A stretch of DNA of 35,222 bases from Bryobacterales bacterium (lineage in GTDB: Bacteria; Acidobacteriota; Terriglobia; Bryobacterales; Bryobacteraceae), in NCBI GenBank assembly GCA_003166865.1, contig PMUP01000088.1, positions 1 through 35,222 on the forward strand, written 5' to 3'. The notes under the pieces were generated by a model. That model was not told the origin of the DNA, made no database searches, and saw nothing but the letters and a program-made list of their open reading frames with translations. Position 1 is the stretch's first letter; the number at the start of each line of letters is the position of its first letter. The translations under genes were made by a program, and so were the position numbers. Below are positions 1-25,742 of the stretch, piece by piece.

Positions 1-1047
1 TTGGGCGATGGGCCCGCGCCTCCGTTCACTCTGCTGCGCCCGGCCACGCATCCCCTGGATGTAAGTCGCGCTACTTTCGATCTTTCAAGCCGCATCGCGG
101 ACAATCTCTTCTGGCTTGGCCGGTACACCGAACGGGTGGAGGCCGCGGTCCGGATCACGCGCGCTATCTTGTCGCGCTTTTTCCAGGAGGAGGACGGCGC
201 GCGCGCCGCGGGTTTGAAAGCCGGATTGGAGATATTGACAGCTCTTGGTTACATCTCGGGAGAACGGCCGTCCGCCGCCGAAAAGGAAGTGCTTGCGCTG
301 GTGTACAAGCCAGCCGCCTCCAATGGCCTGGTTTGGAACATCCATCAAGTGCGGCGTGTCGCGTGGTTGCTGCGCGACCGCATCTCGGTGGACGCCTGGC
401 TCATCTTGAATCAGCTCGACCAGCAATTCTCCACGCAACCGCCTTCCGACGAATTTCGCGTCAGCGCCGCGCAGGACCGGCTGAATCGCGCGATTATCAC
501 GCTTTCGGCTTTCGGCGGCCTGGTGATGGAGAGTATGACGCGCGGGGATGGCTGGCGTTTTCTCGACATCGGCCGCCGGTTGGAGCGCGCCATTCAAATG
601 GTGCAGCTGCTGCGCCATGGTATGCCGCAAGAGGGCTCGGGCGGCGCCGGTGTGCTGGAAGCGATTCTGGAGATGGCCGACAGCTCCATCACCTATCGCT
701 CGCGCTATTTGACGTCCGTGCAAGTCGATCTGGTTCTGGATCTGCTGCTGGTGGACGAAGCCAATCCGCGTTCCATTGCGTTTCAGCTGGCACGCTTGCG
801 CGAGCATATCCGCGAGCTTCCTGGCAGCAAAACTTCCATCCGGCGGCCCGCGGAAGAGCGCATGGCGCTGTCGCTGCTCAACACCGTGCAACTTATCGAC
901 GTGCGCGAGCTGGCCCGCTCCAACGGGCACCGCGCGGCGGAGGTTCGGGAAGCTCTGCTCGGCAAACTGATCGCGGACTTGGGCCTGCTTTCGGAAACAC
1001 TGACCCGCTCTTACTTCAGCCACGCGGCGCAGTCGCGGCGCCTCTGA
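1..1047 (+). CDS. Alpha-E domain protein (DUF403), probably C-terminal part of a circularly permuted ATP-grasp/alpha-E fusion; 5' end outside window
   Basis: The frame is open from base 1, so the true start is probably outside the window. The first ~30 residues (PPFTLLRP...DVSRATFDL) read like the linker joining a circularly permuted ATP-grasp domain to an alpha-E domain. They are followed by the alpha-E signature SRIADNLFWLGRYTERVEAA (about residues 30-49) and a helical domain to the end. Stand-alone alpha-E proteins usually begin right at this motif, so the extra leader favours a fusion. The family is associated with peptide-ligase chemistry and almost always sits beside a transglutaminase-like protease, as here (9-base gap). 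The actual substrate is unknown. Family assignment is strong; the fusion is inferred from the linker alone. Confidence 0.85.
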   Translation: MGDGPAPPFTLLRPATHPLDVSRATFDLSSRIADNLFWLGRYTERVEAAVRITRAILSRFFQEEDGARAAGLKAGLEILTALGYISGERPSAAEKEVLALVYKPAASNGLVWNIHQVRRVAWLLRDRISVDAWLILNQLDQQFSTQPPSDEFRVSAAQDRLNRAIITLSAFGGLVMESMTRGDGWRFLDIGRRLERAIQMVQLLRHGMPQEGSGGAGVLEAILEMADSSITYRSRYLTSVQVDLVLDLLLVDEANPRSIAFQLARLREHIRELPGSKTSIRRPAEERMALSLLNTVQLIDVRELARSNGHRAAEVREALLGKLIADLGLLSETLTRSYFSHAAQSRRL

Positions 1048-1056
1048 GATACTTCC

Positions 1057-1920
1057 ATGAAGCTACTGGCCACGCACATCACTCGCTACTGGTACTCGGG
1101 GCCCGTCTCCATGTGCCATACCGAAGTGCATCTCAAGCCGCGTCCGCGCAAGAACCAAGACATCCTGGAATTTGGACTGGAGGTGAGTCCAACGCCGGAT
1201 TCCTTGCTCTCTCGTGAAGATTACTTTGGCAACGGAGTAACATTCTTCTCCATCGCCGAACCGCACCGGGAGCTGGTCATAACGTCAAGATGCCTGGCGA
1301 ATTTGGATGCGCTGGCGCCGCCCGCGCTCGAATTATCGCCCGCTTGGGAACAAGTGCGCGAGGAAGCCGCCGCGCGCGACACGCCTGAGACGTTTGAGGC
1401 TGGCCAGTTTGTTTTCGAATCGCAGTCCATTCGCGTCGGCGCGCCGTTCGCCCAATACGCCGCCGCCTCCTTCACCGCCGGCCGTCCATTCCTGAGCGCC
1501 GTGGAAGATCTCTCGCGCCGCATCTTCACCGAGTTCCACTACGATCGCCGCGCCACCACGATTGGGACTCCGGTGGATGAAGTGCTGGGCTCCCGCCGCG
1601 GCGTGTGCCAGGATTTCGCGCACTTGATGATCGCGTGCCTGCGGTCGCTCAAATTACCCGCGCGTTACGTGAGCGGCTACCTGCGCACCGGCCGGGATCT
1701 CACGGGTGCTGGCGCATCGCACGCTTGGGTTTCGGCCTGGTGCCCGGTGTTCGGTTGGCAGGATTTCGATCCGACGAACAATGTGATGCCGCGTGGCGAG
1801 CATTTTACAGTGGCGTGGGGCCGCGACTATTCCGACGTCTCACCGGTGAAAGGCGTGGCGCTGGGCGGCGGCGAGCAAGTGATCAGCGTGTCGGTAGATG
1901 TGTCGCCGCAGCCAGACTGA
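1057..1920 (+). CDS. Transglutaminase-like cysteine protease with bacterial transglutaminase N-terminal domain
   Basis: A 287-residue protein with an N-terminal beta domain of the Bact_transglu_N type (residues 1-85, YWYSGPVSMCHTEVHLKPRP) and a transglutaminase core. The catalytic triad can be read as Cys184 in RGVCQDFAH, His222 in ASHAWVSAW and Asp238 in WQDFDPTNN. Length and domain order are normal for the family. No signal peptide is visible, so it is probably cytoplasmic. It starts 9 bases after the alpha-E gene and is probably translated from the same mRNA, although no clear Shine-Dalgarno precedes the ATG. In this family the enzyme is thought to act as a protease or amidase paired with the ATP-grasp/alpha-E ligase; the substrate is not known. 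Confidence 0.92.
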   Translation: MKLLATHITRYWYSGPVSMCHTEVHLKPRPRKNQDILEFGLEVSPTPDSLLSREDYFGNGVTFFSIAEPHRELVITSRCLANLDALAPPALELSPAWEQVREEAAARDTPETFEAGQFVFESQSIRVGAPFAQYAAASFTAGRPFLSAVEDLSRRIFTEFHYDRRATTIGTPVDEVLGSRRGVCQDFAHLMIACLRSLKLPARYVSGYLRTGRDLTGAGASHAWVSAWCPVFGWQDFDPTNNVMPRGEHFTVAWGRDYSDVSPVKGVALGGGEQVISVSVDVSPQPD

Positions 1921-2023
1921 AATCCACGCGGCCAATTTGTTCACCACGCGCGGTCACCAAATGCCCGCCCGGCGCATCTAACCAACGCAAGGGAGCATTA
2001 CCATTCAACCTCTGTTAGATAAA

Positions 2024-3148
2024 TTGGCCCCGAAGCGGAAACGCAAGCCGGTAGCGGGTGGCCGCGCCTATTTCTGCCGCTGTGGGAGACCAGTCTTCTT
2101 TCGCAACAGCGTTTGCCTGGCTTGCAAGACTCCGCTCGGCTACGAACCGCATTTGCGGCAGGTGTTGCCTTTGGCGCCCGCATCCGAGCCCGAGCTTTGG
2201 CAACTCGCGACCGATGGCGTCAGCTCGGAAAAGTACCTGCGTTGCGCGAATTTGGACTCTTCAGCCGGTTGCAACTGGCTGGTCTTGGAACAAGACGCGG
2301 CCGACAACCCGCGCAAATTGTGCATCGCGTGCCGCCTCAACAGGACCATTCCGGACCTTTCCGTGCCCGAGAATGGGGTGTTGTGGGGCCGCGTGGAAGC
2401 AGCCAAACGCCGCCTGGTCTCGTCGCTGATCGCGCTGAATCTTCCCGTGGACTCGCGCGTGGACCAGGACACCCAGCGCGGATTGGCCTTCGATTTTCTG
2501 AGTTCCCCGCCCGAGGGTCCGCGCGTGTTGACGGGCCATGCCGATGGGATTATCACCATCAACATCGAAGAGGCCAATGATTCCGCGCGCGAGCGCATTC
2601 GCGAGGAATTGCGCGAGCCGTATCGCACTCTGCTCGGTCACCTGCGGCACGAAGCTGGGCACTATTATTGGGGTCGTCTCATTGCCGGGTCAACGTGGCT
2701 GGACGATTTCCGTACGCTGTTCGGCGATGAGCGGCAGGATTACGCCGCCGCGCTACAACGCAACTACCAGCAGGGTCCGCTGCCAGGCTGGGAGCAACAG
2801 TACGTCAGCGCCTATGCCAGCGTGCATCCGTGGGAAGACTGGGCGGAAACGTGGGCGCACTATCTGCACATCGTGGATGTCTTAGATACCGCTCTCAGCT
2901 TCGGCCTGGATTTTCGCAAGCTCGAAATGGAGATCGAACCATTCAACCGCGAGGCGTTGTTTCGCCCAAATGAGGCCGGCGCCAAGCGCTTTCTCGCGGT
3001 CCTGAACGCGTGGATCGAACTTACGGCTGTGTTGAACGAACTGTCCCGCAGCATGGGCCAGCCCGATCTCTATCCATTCGCGCTGCCGCATCCGGCAGTG
3101 GCCAAACTGCACTTCATTCACCTGGTAATCGCGCCGCCCGTTGATTAG
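2024..3148 (+). CDS. Putative zinc-binding metallopeptidase with N-terminal zinc ribbon (DUF2248-like)
   Basis: About 374 residues. The N-terminus carries a zinc ribbon (FCRCGRPVFF...CLACKTPLG) followed by more Cys pairs (CANLDSSAGC, KLCIACRLN). A gluzincin-like motif LRHEAGHYYW gives His209, Glu210 and His213, and a downstream acidic stretch HPWEDWAETWAHYLH probably supplies the third ligand. This family commonly sits beside alpha-E and transglutaminase genes, as here. The start is uncertain: the TTG at 2024 has no close ribosome site. AAGGGAG at 1989-1995 would instead suit a non-canonical ATT at 2003, or less well a CTG at 2012; the frame is closed by a TAA at 1979-1981. Family confidence is high; the physiological substrate is unknown. 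Confidence 0.85.
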   Translation: MAPKRKRKPVAGGRAYFCRCGRPVFFRNSVCLACKTPLGYEPHLRQVLPLAPASEPELWQLATDGVSSEKYLRCANLDSSAGCNWLVLEQDAADNPRKLCIACRLNRTIPDLSVPENGVLWGRVEAAKRRLVSSLIALNLPVDSRVDQDTQRGLAFDFLSSPPEGPRVLTGHADGIITINIEEANDSARERIREELREPYRTLLGHLRHEAGHYYWGRLIAGSTWLDDFRTLFGDERQDYAAALQRNYQQGPLPGWEQQYVSAYASVHPWEDWAETWAHYLHIVDVLDTALSFGLDFRKLEMEIEPFNREALFRPNEAGAKRFLAVLNAWIELTAVLNELSRSMGQPDLYPFALPHPAVAKLHFIHLVIAPPVD

Positions 3149-22125: not shown

Positions 22126-23484
22126 ATGAACCAGTTAAGCGAGGCCGTCACTCGCTATCACAAAATCCTGGAAGGCGACCACTACAAAAATCTTTCCTGG
22201 GCACACGAACTCCAGGAACGCATGAAGGCGCACAATTTGGTCGCCGGTGGAAAGCCCGTGTCTCCGGTTCTGCGTCCGCATTTTATCACGCGCAGACAGT
22301 ACGCTGGATTGGTGAAGGCGGTCGAGTCGTTTTCGAGTTCGCTGCAGCGGGTTCAGACCAAGGCGCTCGGCAGTCCCGCGCTGCTCGCGCGCATGGAATT
22401 GCTGCCCGCCGAGAAGATGCTGGCGGCGGTCGACCCCGGGTATTCGTTCCCGGCGGTCACGTCGCTACTCGACACTCATTTGAATAACGGCACGCTGCGC
22501 TTCTCACGCTACATCCCCGATACTCCGACGGGTGTCGCGTATGGCGAGGCGTTGTCTGATATCTTTTACGACGCTGCGCCGGTGAAGGAATTCCGCAAGC
22601 GCTATCGCTTGGAGAAATTGCCCGGCACCAAGCACCTGCTGAACGCCATTCTCAAGGCTTATAAGGAATGGGGCGGCAAGAACAAGAAGCCCAACATCGC
22701 GATTCTCGAATTGCGCCAGCCTTTCCAGGCCGCCGAGTCCGGCGAAAGCGCGATCCTGGCGGAGTTCCTGCGCCGCGACGGTTGCACGGTGGAAGTGGTA
22801 ACGCCCGAACAGCTCGATTATCGCGACGGCGTTCTGCGCCGCGGCGATTTCGCTATCGACTTAGTTTTCCGCCGCGTGAAAGTCCAGGAATTCCTGGTGC
22901 GGTTCGATCTGTCGCATCCCCTGCTGCGCGCCTATCGCGACCAGGCCGTGTGCATGGTCAACAGCTTCCGCTCCGAGCTGGCCCAGAAAAAGGCAATCTT
23001 CGATCTGCTCACGGACGAAGAGATCACCGCCGATTTTCCCGCCGCGGAGCGCAGAGCCATCAAGGAATTCGTGCCTTGGACTCGCGTGGTCCAGGAAGCC
23101 AAGACCAAATACCACAACCGGACCGTCGATCTTCCAGCCTTCATCTTGCACAATCGCAATAAACTTGTTCTGCGTCCCAACGACGAAGGCGCCGATCAGC
23201 AATCCTTCCGTGGTTCTGAAGTGGACGAAGCCGCCTGGGAGAAAGCTCTGCGCTCCGCTCTCCGCAATCCGTACGTGGTGCAGGAAGCCATGGATCCGGT
23301 GGTGGATGTGTTCCCGGTCCTGCAATACGGCCACCTGGAGATGCAGAAAATGCGCGTCGACGTGCATCCCCACTCCTATCTCGGCAAAGTGCAGGGGTGC
23401 TCCAGTTGGCTGACCGCGGTTGGCCCTTCGGGATTCTCCACGCTGTCCGGCGTCGCGCCCACGTTTATCCTGGAACAGAAGTAG
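22126..23484 (+). CDS. Putative ATP-grasp-fold protein (circularly permuted ATP-grasp / glutathionylspermidine synthase-like)
   Basis: A 452-residue soluble protein. The C-terminal third has the character of an ATP-grasp domain: NKLVLRPNDEGADQQSFRG resembles the lysine/glycine-rich nucleotide loop, NPYVVQEAMDP resembles the 'vvQe' strand, and MRVDVHPHSYLGKVQG comes near the end where metal ligands normally sit. The middle part (PNIAILELRQPFQ, ILAEFLRRDGCTVEVVTPEQL) looks like a Rossmann-like pre-ATP-grasp domain. Together this suggests a carboxylate-amine/thiol ligase that would form an amide-type bond; the substrate is unknown. No signal peptide. It is convergent with the Wzt-like gene (7-base gap), so it may not be part of the glycan cluster. 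Could be another nucleotide-binding family. Confidence 0.55.
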   Translation: MNQLSEAVTRYHKILEGDHYKNLSWAHELQERMKAHNLVAGGKPVSPVLRPHFITRRQYAGLVKAVESFSSSLQRVQTKALGSPALLARMELLPAEKMLAAVDPGYSFPAVTSLLDTHLNNGTLRFSRYIPDTPTGVAYGEALSDIFYDAAPVKEFRKRYRLEKLPGTKHLLNAILKAYKEWGGKNKKPNIAILELRQPFQAAESGESAILAEFLRRDGCTVEVVTPEQLDYRDGVLRRGDFAIDLVFRRVKVQEFLVRFDLSHPLLRAYRDQAVCMVNSFRSELAQKKAIFDLLTDEEITADFPAAERRAIKEFVPWTRVVQEAKTKYHNRTVDLPAFILHNRNKLVLRPNDEGADQQSFRGSEVDEAAWEKALRSALRNPYVVQEAMDPVVDVFPVLQYGHLEMQKMRVDVHPHSYLGKVQGCSSWLTAVGPSGFSTLSGVAPTFILEQK

Positions 23485-23491
23485 TCCGCCT

Positions 23492-24439
23492 CTACACTTT
23501 CTCGATCTTCACTTTTGCGCGCAAATTCGCCACGCCCGCGGTGTATCGCGAATCCGCCACCGCGAACGCCACCGCGTCATCCACCCAATCGTGCGTGGTG
23601 CCGTCCGCATCGTGCGACGCCGCCGTGATAGTGTATTCGCCCGGGCACAAATCGCAGCGGAACCCAAACTCGATCCGCATGCGCTCGCCCGCCGCGTAAA
23701 TTCCGGTGCTCACTTTCTCCAGCTCCGTATTCGTCCCGTACACTTCCAGTCCAATGCGCGTGCGAATCAGGATGCCGATCACCGGCTCCTCCACTCGATC
23801 GTGATACCGCACCGCGACGCGCACGGTCGCACTCTCGCCGCTCCGCCAGACAGCGGTCGGATTTCCCGCGGCGTCCAGGGTCTCGATCGACAAAATCTCC
23901 GCGCGTCCGTCCCCCCTGCGCATGGCGGGCCGCAGCGGACTCAGCATCGTACTCTGGAGGGTGGCACCCCACGCCCGCACTTTCTCCGCGATGCTTTGGC
24001 GATAGGCGTCCAGCACCTCGCGCGGATCCCCCCGCTGCGCCAGCGACCCTGCGTCCAGCCACCAAACTTCGTCGCACAGCGATTGCAGCAGATCCAGCTC
24101 GTGCGAAACGATCAACACCGTCGTGCCCGCGCTGCGCAGCCGGTCGATTCCAGCCACCGCGCGCGCCCTCACCAGCGCGTCATGGTGGGCCAGCGAATGC
24201 TCTATCAATAAAATATCGACTGGCGAAAGTTGCAGGGCATCCAACGGTCCCAGATAGCGCCGCTCTCCGTCGGCGATCACTTCCCCCGCTTCCGGTTGCA
24301 CCGCTCCCGACGCCAGCCTCAGCAGCGCGGCCTTGCCGGCGCCCTTTTCTCCAACTACGCCGATCACCGATCCATTGGGCGCCGAAATCGTCAGATCGCG
24401 CAACGGCGCCAAGCGCGCGCCGCGAAACTCAATGGCCAT
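23492..24439 (-). CDS. Wzt-like ABC ATP-binding protein with degenerate ATPase and C-terminal carbohydrate-binding-like domain
   Basis: A 315-residue protein from the ATG at 24439; an upstream in-frame extension to 24490 lacks support. The N-terminal half is ABC-like but much shortened. The Walker A reads GEKGAGKAA (Lys36, with Ala37 where Ser/Thr is required). The Walker B region is ILLIEHSLAHHD with Glu80-His81 in place of Asp-Glu. The stretch between them that should hold the Q-loop and LSGGQ signature is missing (only ~30 residues). The H-loop His113 (VLIVSHE) and LCDEVWWLDAGSL remain. Residues ~190-305 form a Wzt-C-like beta-sandwich (RAEILSIETLDAAGNPTAVW, GILIRTRIGLEVYGTNTE), which in O-antigen exporters binds the glycan end. 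No Wzm permease is in the window. Probably a carbohydrate-binding or regulatory partner rather than an active pump motor. Confidence 0.75.
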   Translation of the reverse strand: MAIEFRGARLAPLRDLTISAPNGSVIGVVGEKGAGKAALLRLASGAVQPEAGEVIADGERRYLGPLDALQLSPVDILLIEHSLAHHDALVRARAVAGIDRLRSAGTTVLIVSHELDLLQSLCDEVWWLDAGSLAQRGDPREVLDAYRQSIAEKVRAWGATLQSTMLSPLRPAMRRGDGRAEILSIETLDAAGNPTAVWRSGESATVRVAVRYHDRVEEPVIGILIRTRIGLEVYGTNTELEKVSTGIYAAGERMRIEFGFRCDLCPGEYTITAASHDADGTTHDWVDDAVAFAVADSRYTAGVANLRAKVKIEKV

Positions 24440-24455
24440 GTTAGTAGAATAACGC

Positions 24456-25742
24456 TTGATCCTTGCCCTACTGATGGTGCTGCCCCACACGGGAGTCGTT
24501 CATTTGCCCGCAGGCGTCACCGAGGTTTCGTCGGAACTGAAGCTCCCCGAAGGCGCGCACGATCTCACCATTGTCGGAGATAACACGACGCTTCACGCCT
24601 CTTCCAGCTTCCACGGCCGAGCGATGTTGAGCTGCCGCAACTGCCGCCGAATCAGCTTTCGCAATTTCGTAATCGATGGCAATCGGCCGGCGCTCGAACG
24701 GCCCATGCCGCTGCCGCCCACCGACAAGAGCTTTGCGAGCGTGTTCCCCAACAACGGCATCCTGATCGAAGACAGCGATGGCGTCGCTCTGGATCATGTC
24801 GACTTCGCAAACATCACCAACTTCGCCGTGCTTATCGCCCATTCAAAGAATGTCCTGATCGACCATATCTCGCTGAAAGACAGCGGGTCGTTGAATGCCA
24901 AAGGCCGAAACAACACCTCCGGCGGGATTCTCCTAGAAGAAGGGACCGAACAGTTCACCGTAACCGATTCGGTGTTTCGCAACATCCGCGGCAACGCGAT
25001 CTGGACGCACTCCCGTTACATGTCGCCCCGCAACGGCCGAGGCAAGATCGCCAACAACCAGTTCTTCGATATTGGACGCGACGCCATTCAAGTGGGCCAT
25101 GCGACTCAAGTCGGCGTGGCCGGCAATCGCGGCAGCCGCATCGGGTTGGCCGTGGAGCTGGTGGATGTCGAAAACGGCGGAACTCCAGTTGGCATCGATA
25201 CCGCCGGCAATGTCGACCAGTCGGTCTACGAGCGCAACAGCTTCGACGAAATCGACGGCAAATGCATCGACCTGGACGGCTTCCATGACGGCTCCGTGCG
25301 GGGCAATACGTGCACCAATCGCCGGCCGCCCGAGGATTATCCGTTCGGACACTTCGGCATTGTGTTCAATAACGCCAGTATCGAGATGCGATCGCAGAAT
25401 ATCGTGGTGGAGGATAACGAACTGGACGGCATGAAATATGGCGGCATATTTCTCATCGGTGCGGGGCACAGGATCCTACGCAATCGATTGCTCCACATAA
25501 ACACCGCGCACTGCAATGAAAATCGCCAGAGGTTCGGCTGCTCGGTGTTGGGCGAAGTGGAGGTTCTGGAAACCGGAATCTATTTGGGAAGCCACGCGGA
25601 ACACCCCGATCCGGCGCGCGGCAATGTGATTGAAGGCAACACCATTTCAGGCTGGAAAATGAAACTGCGTTGTATCCAGGCCGCGCCCGGCGTCAAGCTG
25701 TCGGACAACACCATTCGCAAGAACACCTGCACTGATGAGTGA
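24456..25742 (+). CDS. Right-handed parallel beta-helix repeat protein, probably exported
   Basis: A 428-residue protein with a short hydrophobic N-terminus (MILALLMVLPHTGVV) that may be a signal peptide. Many beta-helix coils follow, such as DLTIVGDNTTLHASSS, GILIEDSDGVALDHVDF, NVLIDHISLKDSG, KIANNQFFDIGRDAIQVG and NIVVEDNELDGMKYGGIFLI. This fold is typical of polysaccharide lyases, hydrolases and epimerases (NosD/CASH-like). No catalytic set can be named with confidence. The start is a TTG at 24456, with an in-frame ATG at 24474 as alternative. TAGAAT ends five bases before the TTG, and only 16 bases separate it from the divergent Wzt-like gene. The glycan-gene context suggests a role in surface or secreted polysaccharide processing. 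Confidence 0.75.
   Translation: MILALLMVLPHTGVVHLPAGVTEVSSELKLPEGAHDLTIVGDNTTLHASSSFHGRAMLSCRNCRRISFRNFVIDGNRPALERPMPLPPTDKSFASVFPNNGILIEDSDGVALDHVDFANITNFAVLIAHSKNVLIDHISLKDSGSLNAKGRNNTSGGILLEEGTEQFTVTDSVFRNIRGNAIWTHSRYMSPRNGRGKIANNQFFDIGRDAIQVGHATQVGVAGNRGSRIGLAVELVDVENGGTPVGIDTAGNVDQSVYERNSFDEIDGKCIDLDGFHDGSVRGNTCTNRRPPEDYPFGHFGIVFNNASIEMRSQNIVVEDNELDGMKYGGIFLIGAGHRILRNRLLHINTAHCNENRQRFGCSVLGEVEVLETGIYLGSHAEHPDPARGNVIEGNTISGWKMKLRCIQAAPGVKLSDNTIRKNTCTDE

Follow-up and report, generated by a model that had tools for sequence, protein, structure and literature searches.

A probable pseudo-ATP-grasp protein with degraded active-site motifs is widespread in the Bryobacteraceae

Does a protein that is predicted to fold like an ATP-grasp ligase still act as one when most of its active-site residues have been replaced? 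This question is raised by an open reading frame in the window—the whole 35,222-nucleotide stretch of Bryobacterales DNA analyzed here—for which a sequence-only reading had proposed an ATP-grasp-like ligase. The frame starts with ATG and encodes 452 amino acids, and the earlier call of a gene at this place was borne out: rather than a chance ORF, it is a conserved gene, matched in 179 of the 200 genomes belonging to its GTDB family (130 of the 140 good ones) and in 70 of 76 genera.

22126..23484, plus strand: circularly permuted ATP-grasp-fold protein with a degraded active site, a pseudo-ATP-grasp candidate (ORF, PF14403, AF2, Foldseek)

Profile searches returned a single Pfam match for this protein, to CP_ATPgrasp_2 (PF14403; E 3e-6, residues 133-419), whose score of 26.9 bits (23.4 in the genome search) lies below the curated cut-off of 32, and no match among NCBIfam profiles. 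Missing the cut-off is not decisive, since three relatives from outside the family (L032, L033 and L056; 25.8-26.4 bits) miss it as well; three others (L057, L067 and L072; 33.0-47.8 bits) exceed it. Used as the sole query against solved structures, the window protein had no relevant match, and a viral relative was rejected, as a viral structure library yielded no match at E ≤ 0.001. Where the sequence-only reading knew of no family to name, one can now be given: the protein is divergent but related to CP_ATPgrasp_2 and to 3n6x, a putative glutathionylspermidine synthase.

An AF2 model of the window protein, computed with 33 homologues, reached a mean pLDDT of 90.5 and a pTM of 0.87. Its top match in a Foldseek comparison with the PDB was human glutathione synthetase (8fbz, E 3.8e-15), and further matches included E. 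coli glutathionylspermidine synthetase (2io8), 3n6x, YjfC (7uk6) and Cp1B. The best 50 of 56 matches (E ≤ 0.001) comprised glutathione, homoglutathione, glutathionylspermidine and trypanothione synthetases, YgiC/YjfC, 3n6x, Cp1B and glutathione-synthetase-like effectors, with no other class among these 50; their alignments are sequential and cover nearly the whole chain, at TM-scores to the query of 0.48-0.68. An intact relative from Chloroflexota (L032), modelled with 13 homologues (pLDDT 86.4), retrieved largely the same set, with 3n6x on top. The model thus predicts a three-domain, circularly permuted ATP-grasp fold of the glutathione/glutathionylspermidine synthetase type. As regards the fold, the original assignment was right: a predicted fold without the ATP-grasp core had been named as the finding that would overturn it, and AF2 and Foldseek place that core in the protein, so the assignment stands.

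Homologues were gathered by a contig scan, which returned 33 loci (31 Acidobacteriota groups and two Chloroflexota), and by genome searches that enlarged the set beyond these. The alignment took in 126 loci with 123 profile matches; dropping two short and 15 identical rows left 106 distinct sequences. Grouping followed identity to the window protein (>0.42), not taxonomy, and gave 76 Bryobacteraceae-type sequences (the window protein, 31 from the contig scan and 44 from the genome searches; a sample and not every one of the 179 genomes with a match) and 30 outside relatives (27 from a phylum search, the class relative G057 and the two Chloroflexota). L120, from a same-family genome, fell among the outside rows by this rule and was reassigned by hand to the Bryobacteraceae type. 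Twelve positions were scored (R114, D116, E128, N130, K350, G356, G357, G359, D412, R428, N436 and G440 in window protein numbering), picked with the alignment in view because they are invariant outside and belong to recognised motifs.

All 12 positions are kept in each of the 30 outside relatives, whereas the 76 Bryobacteraceae-type sequences keep between none and six: none in four sequences, one in six, two in 24, three in 16, four in 11, five in 10 and six in five. The window protein keeps two, D116 and D412, and its motif regions read as follows.

22465..22473, plus strand: residues 114-116, LLD replacing R-x-D, D116 kept (R114 in 13/76 and D116 in 52/76, versus 30/30 outside)
22507..22515, plus strand: residues 128-130, RYI replacing E-x-N (E128 in 14/76 and N130 in 27/76, versus 30/30 outside)
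23173..23202, plus strand: residues 350-359, RPNDEGADQQ replacing KPND-x-YGG-x-G, the lid lysine and glycine-rich loop (alignment)
23359..23370, plus strand: residues 412-415, DVHP replacing D-L-D-P, D412 kept (51/76, versus 30/30 outside)
23404..23451, plus strand: residues 427-442, SWLTAVGPSGFSTLSG replacing TRLSS..LxNVTSGGG of relatives (alignment)

Across the 76 sequences, retention in the lid and loop drops from K350 (31) and G356 (21) to G357 (4) and G359 (1), and in the C-terminal segment from R428 (10) to N436 (2) and G440 (0), against 30/30 outside for each. Position 414, Asp in most outside rows, is His in 47 of 75 family rows. In the window protein, the R-x-D...E-x-N quartet of intact relatives has become L-x-D...R-x-I, the lid lysine is Arg (R350), residues 355-359 are GADQQ, and Trp and Gly take the places of the C-terminal Arg and Asn, respectively; residues 435-437 have a pLDDT under 50 in the AF2 model. 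Two features singled out by the sequence-only reading can be placed here. The ‘vvQe’ strand is real, Q386 being present in 76/76 Bryobacteraceae-type sequences and all outside rows. The nucleotide loop looks degraded beside that of the relatives. The term ‘ligase’ finds no support in the inspection of Mg/ATP ligands that the same reading had proposed, as the quartet (except D116), lid lysine, glycine loop and C-terminal Arg/Asn are all replaced. Judged by its sequence, the gene shows the combination that marks a pseudoenzyme, namely conservation of the gene with loss of its catalytic motifs.

The loss is concentrated in the motif regions. Among 59 sites at least 95% conserved outside, mean retention in the family is 0.41 for the 25 in motif regions versus 0.85 for the 34 elsewhere, and retention under 80% affects 20/25 versus 8/34 (Fisher p 2e-5, with the motif regions delimited after seeing the alignment). 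The identity floor is 34% among the 30 outside relatives and 35% among the 76 Bryobacteraceae-type sequences; divergence alone is therefore no explanation, since the outside relatives, down to 34% identity, all keep 12/12. As read from the alignment, motif loss is targeted.

Comparison with known systems sharpens this picture. Canonical homologues from other Acidobacteriota and Chloroflexota are about 30-37% identical to the window protein, homologous from end to end and similar in length, and have N279, T319-R320, G363 and Q386 in common with it; they keep 12/12 motif positions and often adjoin a RimK-like or GCS2 gene, whereas the Bryobacteraceae gene adjoins neither. 3n6x, from Methylobacillus, has the same circularly permuted fold (Foldseek E 7.1e-14) but possesses the E-x-N, lid lysine, glycine loop and C-terminal segment that the window protein lacks. 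In a profile of 16 intact relatives, the R-x-D and E-x-N of YgiC align with theirs, as do the E-x-N, the lysine/GG loop and the C-terminal R, N and GG of 3n6x, which carries Gly at R114. This arginine is not universal among motif-bearing CP_ATPgrasp_2 proteins, being Gly also in L083 from the window's own genome. E. coli YjfC and YgiC fold like the window protein (7uk6, E 1.5e-13; 7uk8, E 4.2e-12), and YgiC has the R-x-D...E-x-N of intact relatives; E. coli GspS uses R316, D318, E330 and N332, whose spacing is that of the intact relatives. Cp1B, a fungal protein of E-64 biosynthesis (9cjn, E 2.0e-11), again shares the fold and is an active ligase with R-x-D...E-x-N, unlike the L-x-D...R-x-I of the window protein. 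One paper terms YgiC/YjfC characterised peptidylpolyamine synthetases and describes R139, D141, E163 and N165 of Cp1B as surrounding the adenosine, with each change to Ala abolishing or significantly attenuating activity (PMC12568646). By analogy, we infer that these four residues correspond to the quartet positions of the intact relatives, whose profile alignment does not span them. In a tree computed without the motif columns (28 of the 76 sequences plus the 30 outside), the two groups stand apart with an SH-aLRT of 100. This tree is unrooted; because 3n6x, YgiC and Cp1B show features of the motifs, the intact motifs are taken to be ancestral, and we infer that the change ran from intact to degraded and that ligase activity is absent.

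The chief rival reading holds that the protein has diverged but is still an active ATP-grasp ligase, one whose ligands have moved or been substituted and whose substrate is new. It draws on the residues that persist. N279, R320, G363 and Q386 are invariant in 76/76 sequences, K288 is found in 69/76 with Arg in the remaining seven, and E387 in 63/76; by analogy, N279, R320, G363, Q386 and K/R288 would form part of the nucleotide pocket. Two thirds of the sequences still have D116, and two thirds D412; the K350-to-Arg exchange in 38 of 75 family rows is a mild one, and pseudoenzymes can prove active with other chemistry. Five sequences (L090, L092, L094, L044 and L012) keep six of 12 positions, namely D116, E128, N130, K350, G356 and D412, and residual or altered activity is therefore possible in these. 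Against an active ligase, the 76 sequences differ widely at the quartet positions, with 42 combinations of which the most frequent, LDEN, occurs in only seven; this looks like relaxed constraint and not like a new fixed set; the complete quartet R114, D116, E128 and N130 occurs in 0/76 Bryobacteraceae-type sequences, and D116, E128 and N130 together in only 7/76. Seventeen positions, counting the start Met, are fixed in the family and less well fixed, or not fixed at all, in outside relatives, among them W25, P84, R89, L93, P94, M98, R249, R259, L262 and H264. They hint at a new surface or site, but the only Asp, Glu or Asn they offer is D297, already Asp in 70% of outside relatives. On balance, we consider an active ligase unlikely.

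Genomic context separates the two groups as well. Around intact relatives (22 loci: 20 chosen stretches plus L032 and L033), a RimK-like ATP-grasp gene (~330 aa) lies at 14 loci, in 11 of them as the immediate same-strand upstream neighbor, and a GCS2 carboxylate-amine ligase gene lies at 13, in eight of them immediately downstream; nine loci have both partners and four neither. The GCS2 identity is firm, and the RimK-like label rests on sub-threshold NCBIfam matches. The 2009 work of Iyer et al. on amidoligases may describe operons of RimK-like, CP ATP-grasp and GCS2 genes. At the 32 loci of the Bryobacteraceae gene, 26 of which have at least 3 kb on both sides, no ORF matched the RimK-like or GCS2 profiles in a search that recovered the above 14 and 13 loci as positive controls, and no other conserved operon was found around the gene. 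Neither partner was found in the window's own genome at E ≤ 0.001. In the wider family, strong RimK-like matches (over 370 bits) occur in 31 of 81 genomes, as counted by hand from a list, and GCS2 matches in 29. Five genomes (G005, G009, G372, G381 and G401) carry both partners without the pseudo-ATP-grasp gene and the window's own genome shows the reverse, so the gene and its old partners appear to be inherited independently. None of 14 fetched regions around family RimK-like/GCS2 genes contained a CP ATP-grasp above 30 bits.

Where these partner genes do occur in Bryobacteraceae, the gene order runs from a putative esterase through the RimK-like ATP-grasp and the GCS2 carboxylate-amine ligase to an M29 peptidase-like protein and a protein of ~390 aa, with Pfam names taken from L159 and L160 only. 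The full order was seen in L159, L160, L168 and L172 and parts of it in nine of the 10 other regions; L169 has the RimK-like gene alone. One in-frame stop is present in six of the 31 strong RimK-like matches (G386, G390, G392, G393, G363 and G389). In G386 and G363 it probably falls at the end of the match, since ORFs of 309 aa (L161) and 356 aa (L172) still carry a high-scoring RimK-like match.

Could the gene simply be decaying on its way to loss? Of the 200 family genomes 21 lack it, 10 of these being among the 140 good ones, and in genus g8 it is missing from each of the five genomes listed; true losses therefore occur, the gene is dispensable in some lineages, and the motif columns do vary inside the family. 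However, no internal stop codon was found among the matches listed, most genera retain the gene, and the 17 positions vary less inside the family than among outside relatives. The closest pairs also show constraint: of the 25 pairs with the lowest dS, 13 have dN below 0.12, and these 13, which partly share sequences, show dN/dS ratios of 0.038-0.157 (about 0.08-0.13 for the window protein versus L002, L003, L004 and L016), and third codon positions dominate in the close pairs. The remaining 12 have dN values of 0.14-0.50 and ratios of 0.18-0.86, and 367 pairs with dS below 1.2 have a median ratio of 0.35; selection is thus less clear across all pairs, with biased dS suspected in the far ones. 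Given ratios of 0.04-0.16 in close relatives, we regard decay as very unlikely. An intact copy elsewhere in these genomes was also rejected: by the matches listed, all but seven of the 179 genomes have a single match. The extra matches were accounted for in five of these seven (all but G493 and G517), G018 and G414 showing adjoining pieces, G484 pieces at contig ends, and G406 and G460 one full match by profile search.

The window gene had been described as lying beside a glycan locus. The stop ends of the gene and of its downstream neighbor, which is convergent, are seven bases apart.

23492..24490, minus strand: shortened ABC-ATPase-like domain fused to Wzt_C, convergent neighbor (PF14524, E 2.6e-36; partial ABC_tran match)

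In a set of 10 such Wzt_C ABC-like proteins (the window's and L004, L007, L008, L009, L010, L011, L019, L030 and L034), a simple pattern search found an LSGGQ-type signature in none, and on visual inspection only the window's protein keeps the Walker A lysine, the other nine lacking it. By sequence, the neighbor is apparently a second degraded ATP-binding protein.

This neighbor is what a further rival would build on, by which the ATP-grasp-fold protein belongs to the neighboring glycan-export locus and acts with the Wzt_C ABC-like protein, seemingly a degraded catalyst too. Homologues of the latter lie within the next two genes at 10 of 32 loci; near-full-length copies occur in 44 of 81 family genomes; by hand count, 42 of these also have the ATP-grasp gene, and 16 of the 42 have the two genes within 2 kb. 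In 24 of the 42 genomes by that count, however, the two genes lie on separate contigs or, for G386 alone, at a great distance from each other, though contig breaks could hide some linkage, and G373 and G381 have the Wzt_C ABC-like gene without the ATP-grasp gene. Being convergent, the two genes do not form one operon. A check of conserved neighbors, also suggested earlier, thus returned the Wzt_C ABC-like gene as recurring and nothing else, and apart from it no neighbor ties the gene to the glycan locus. An enzyme of that locus was rejected for want of any other recurring linkage, and membership in a glycan-export system strikes us as most improbable.

At the start of the window, the sequence-only reading had seen the end of another ATP-grasp protein; frame 1 there encodes an Alpha-E domain protein instead (PF04168, E 1.9e-68), followed by a transglutaminase-like gene. 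Alpha-E, transglutaminase-like and zinc-ribbon Peptidase_Mx (2024-3148) genes stand in a row at 1-3148, and the window starts at contig base 1; upstream of it there may be a CP ATP-grasp gene that partners Alpha-E. In Anbu operons, Alpha-E and transglutaminase-like genes accompany an ATP-grasp gene (PMC6376114), and such a partnership may explain the earlier call. The accompanying suggestion of several ligases of this class holds in so far as two more CP_ATPgrasp_2 genes score above the cut-off on other contigs of the genome, but not for the window start. Neither of these two PF14403 genes matched the window protein at E ≤ 0.001. One of them, L084 (contig C53), reaches 530 bits with PF14403 yet reads VLADRT in place of E-x-N and has no glycine loop of the usual kind; degraded domains of the CP ATP-grasp type are thus not confined to the family of the window protein.

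Taking together the computed fold, motif loss, wide conservation, constraint in close pairs and missing adjacent operon partners, we think it probable that the gene encodes a lineage-wide pseudo-ATP-grasp, once a glutathione/glutathionylspermidine-synthetase-like ligase and now kept by selection for another function. Since most catalytic residues have been replaced and most members keep the altered version, its job probably differs from that of the ancestral enzyme. In the ancestor of the Bryobacteraceae, the gene would have been separated from the ligase operon; most residues for Mg2+, phosphate and acyl-phosphate would then have been lost, with selection keeping the degraded protein for its other function. 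The three-domain clamp would still fold and retain part of the nucleotide pocket (K/R288, Q386 and mostly E387) along with family-specific conserved positions (W25, several in 84-98, R249, R259 and H264). Such a protein would most likely serve as a sensor or scaffold that binds a nucleotide, a metabolite or another protein as its partner, and would perform no ATP-dependent amide ligation.

Kinases and phosphatases include many familiar pseudoenzymes. Among ATP-grasp ligases they seem little described: in open-licence full texts, the word pseudoenzyme was found together with ATP-grasp only for TTLL12, where it stands in a reference title, and phrases for an inactive, degenerate or pseudo ATP-grasp were matched by the word pseudoligase alone. 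TTLL12, a tubulin-tyrosine-ligase-like protein, is ATP-grasp-like and reported not to catalyse the expected reactions; it is eukaryotic, unlike the bacterial window protein, and belongs to a different branch of the ATP-grasp superfamily.

A more far-reaching and unlikely extension is that this widespread, usually single-copy pseudo-ligase left a peptide-ligase operon to become a nucleotide- or metabolite-binding regulator and that, where in some lineages it lies beside the ABC-like gene with its glycan-binding Wzt_C domain, two dead ATPases could sense or gate an envelope-glycan process. The gene at 22126-23484 also carries a warning, in that its fold alone is insufficient to name it a ligase. 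A degraded ligase kept in 179 of 200 family genomes would offer a clean example from nature in which to study what the ATP-grasp fold does without its chemistry.
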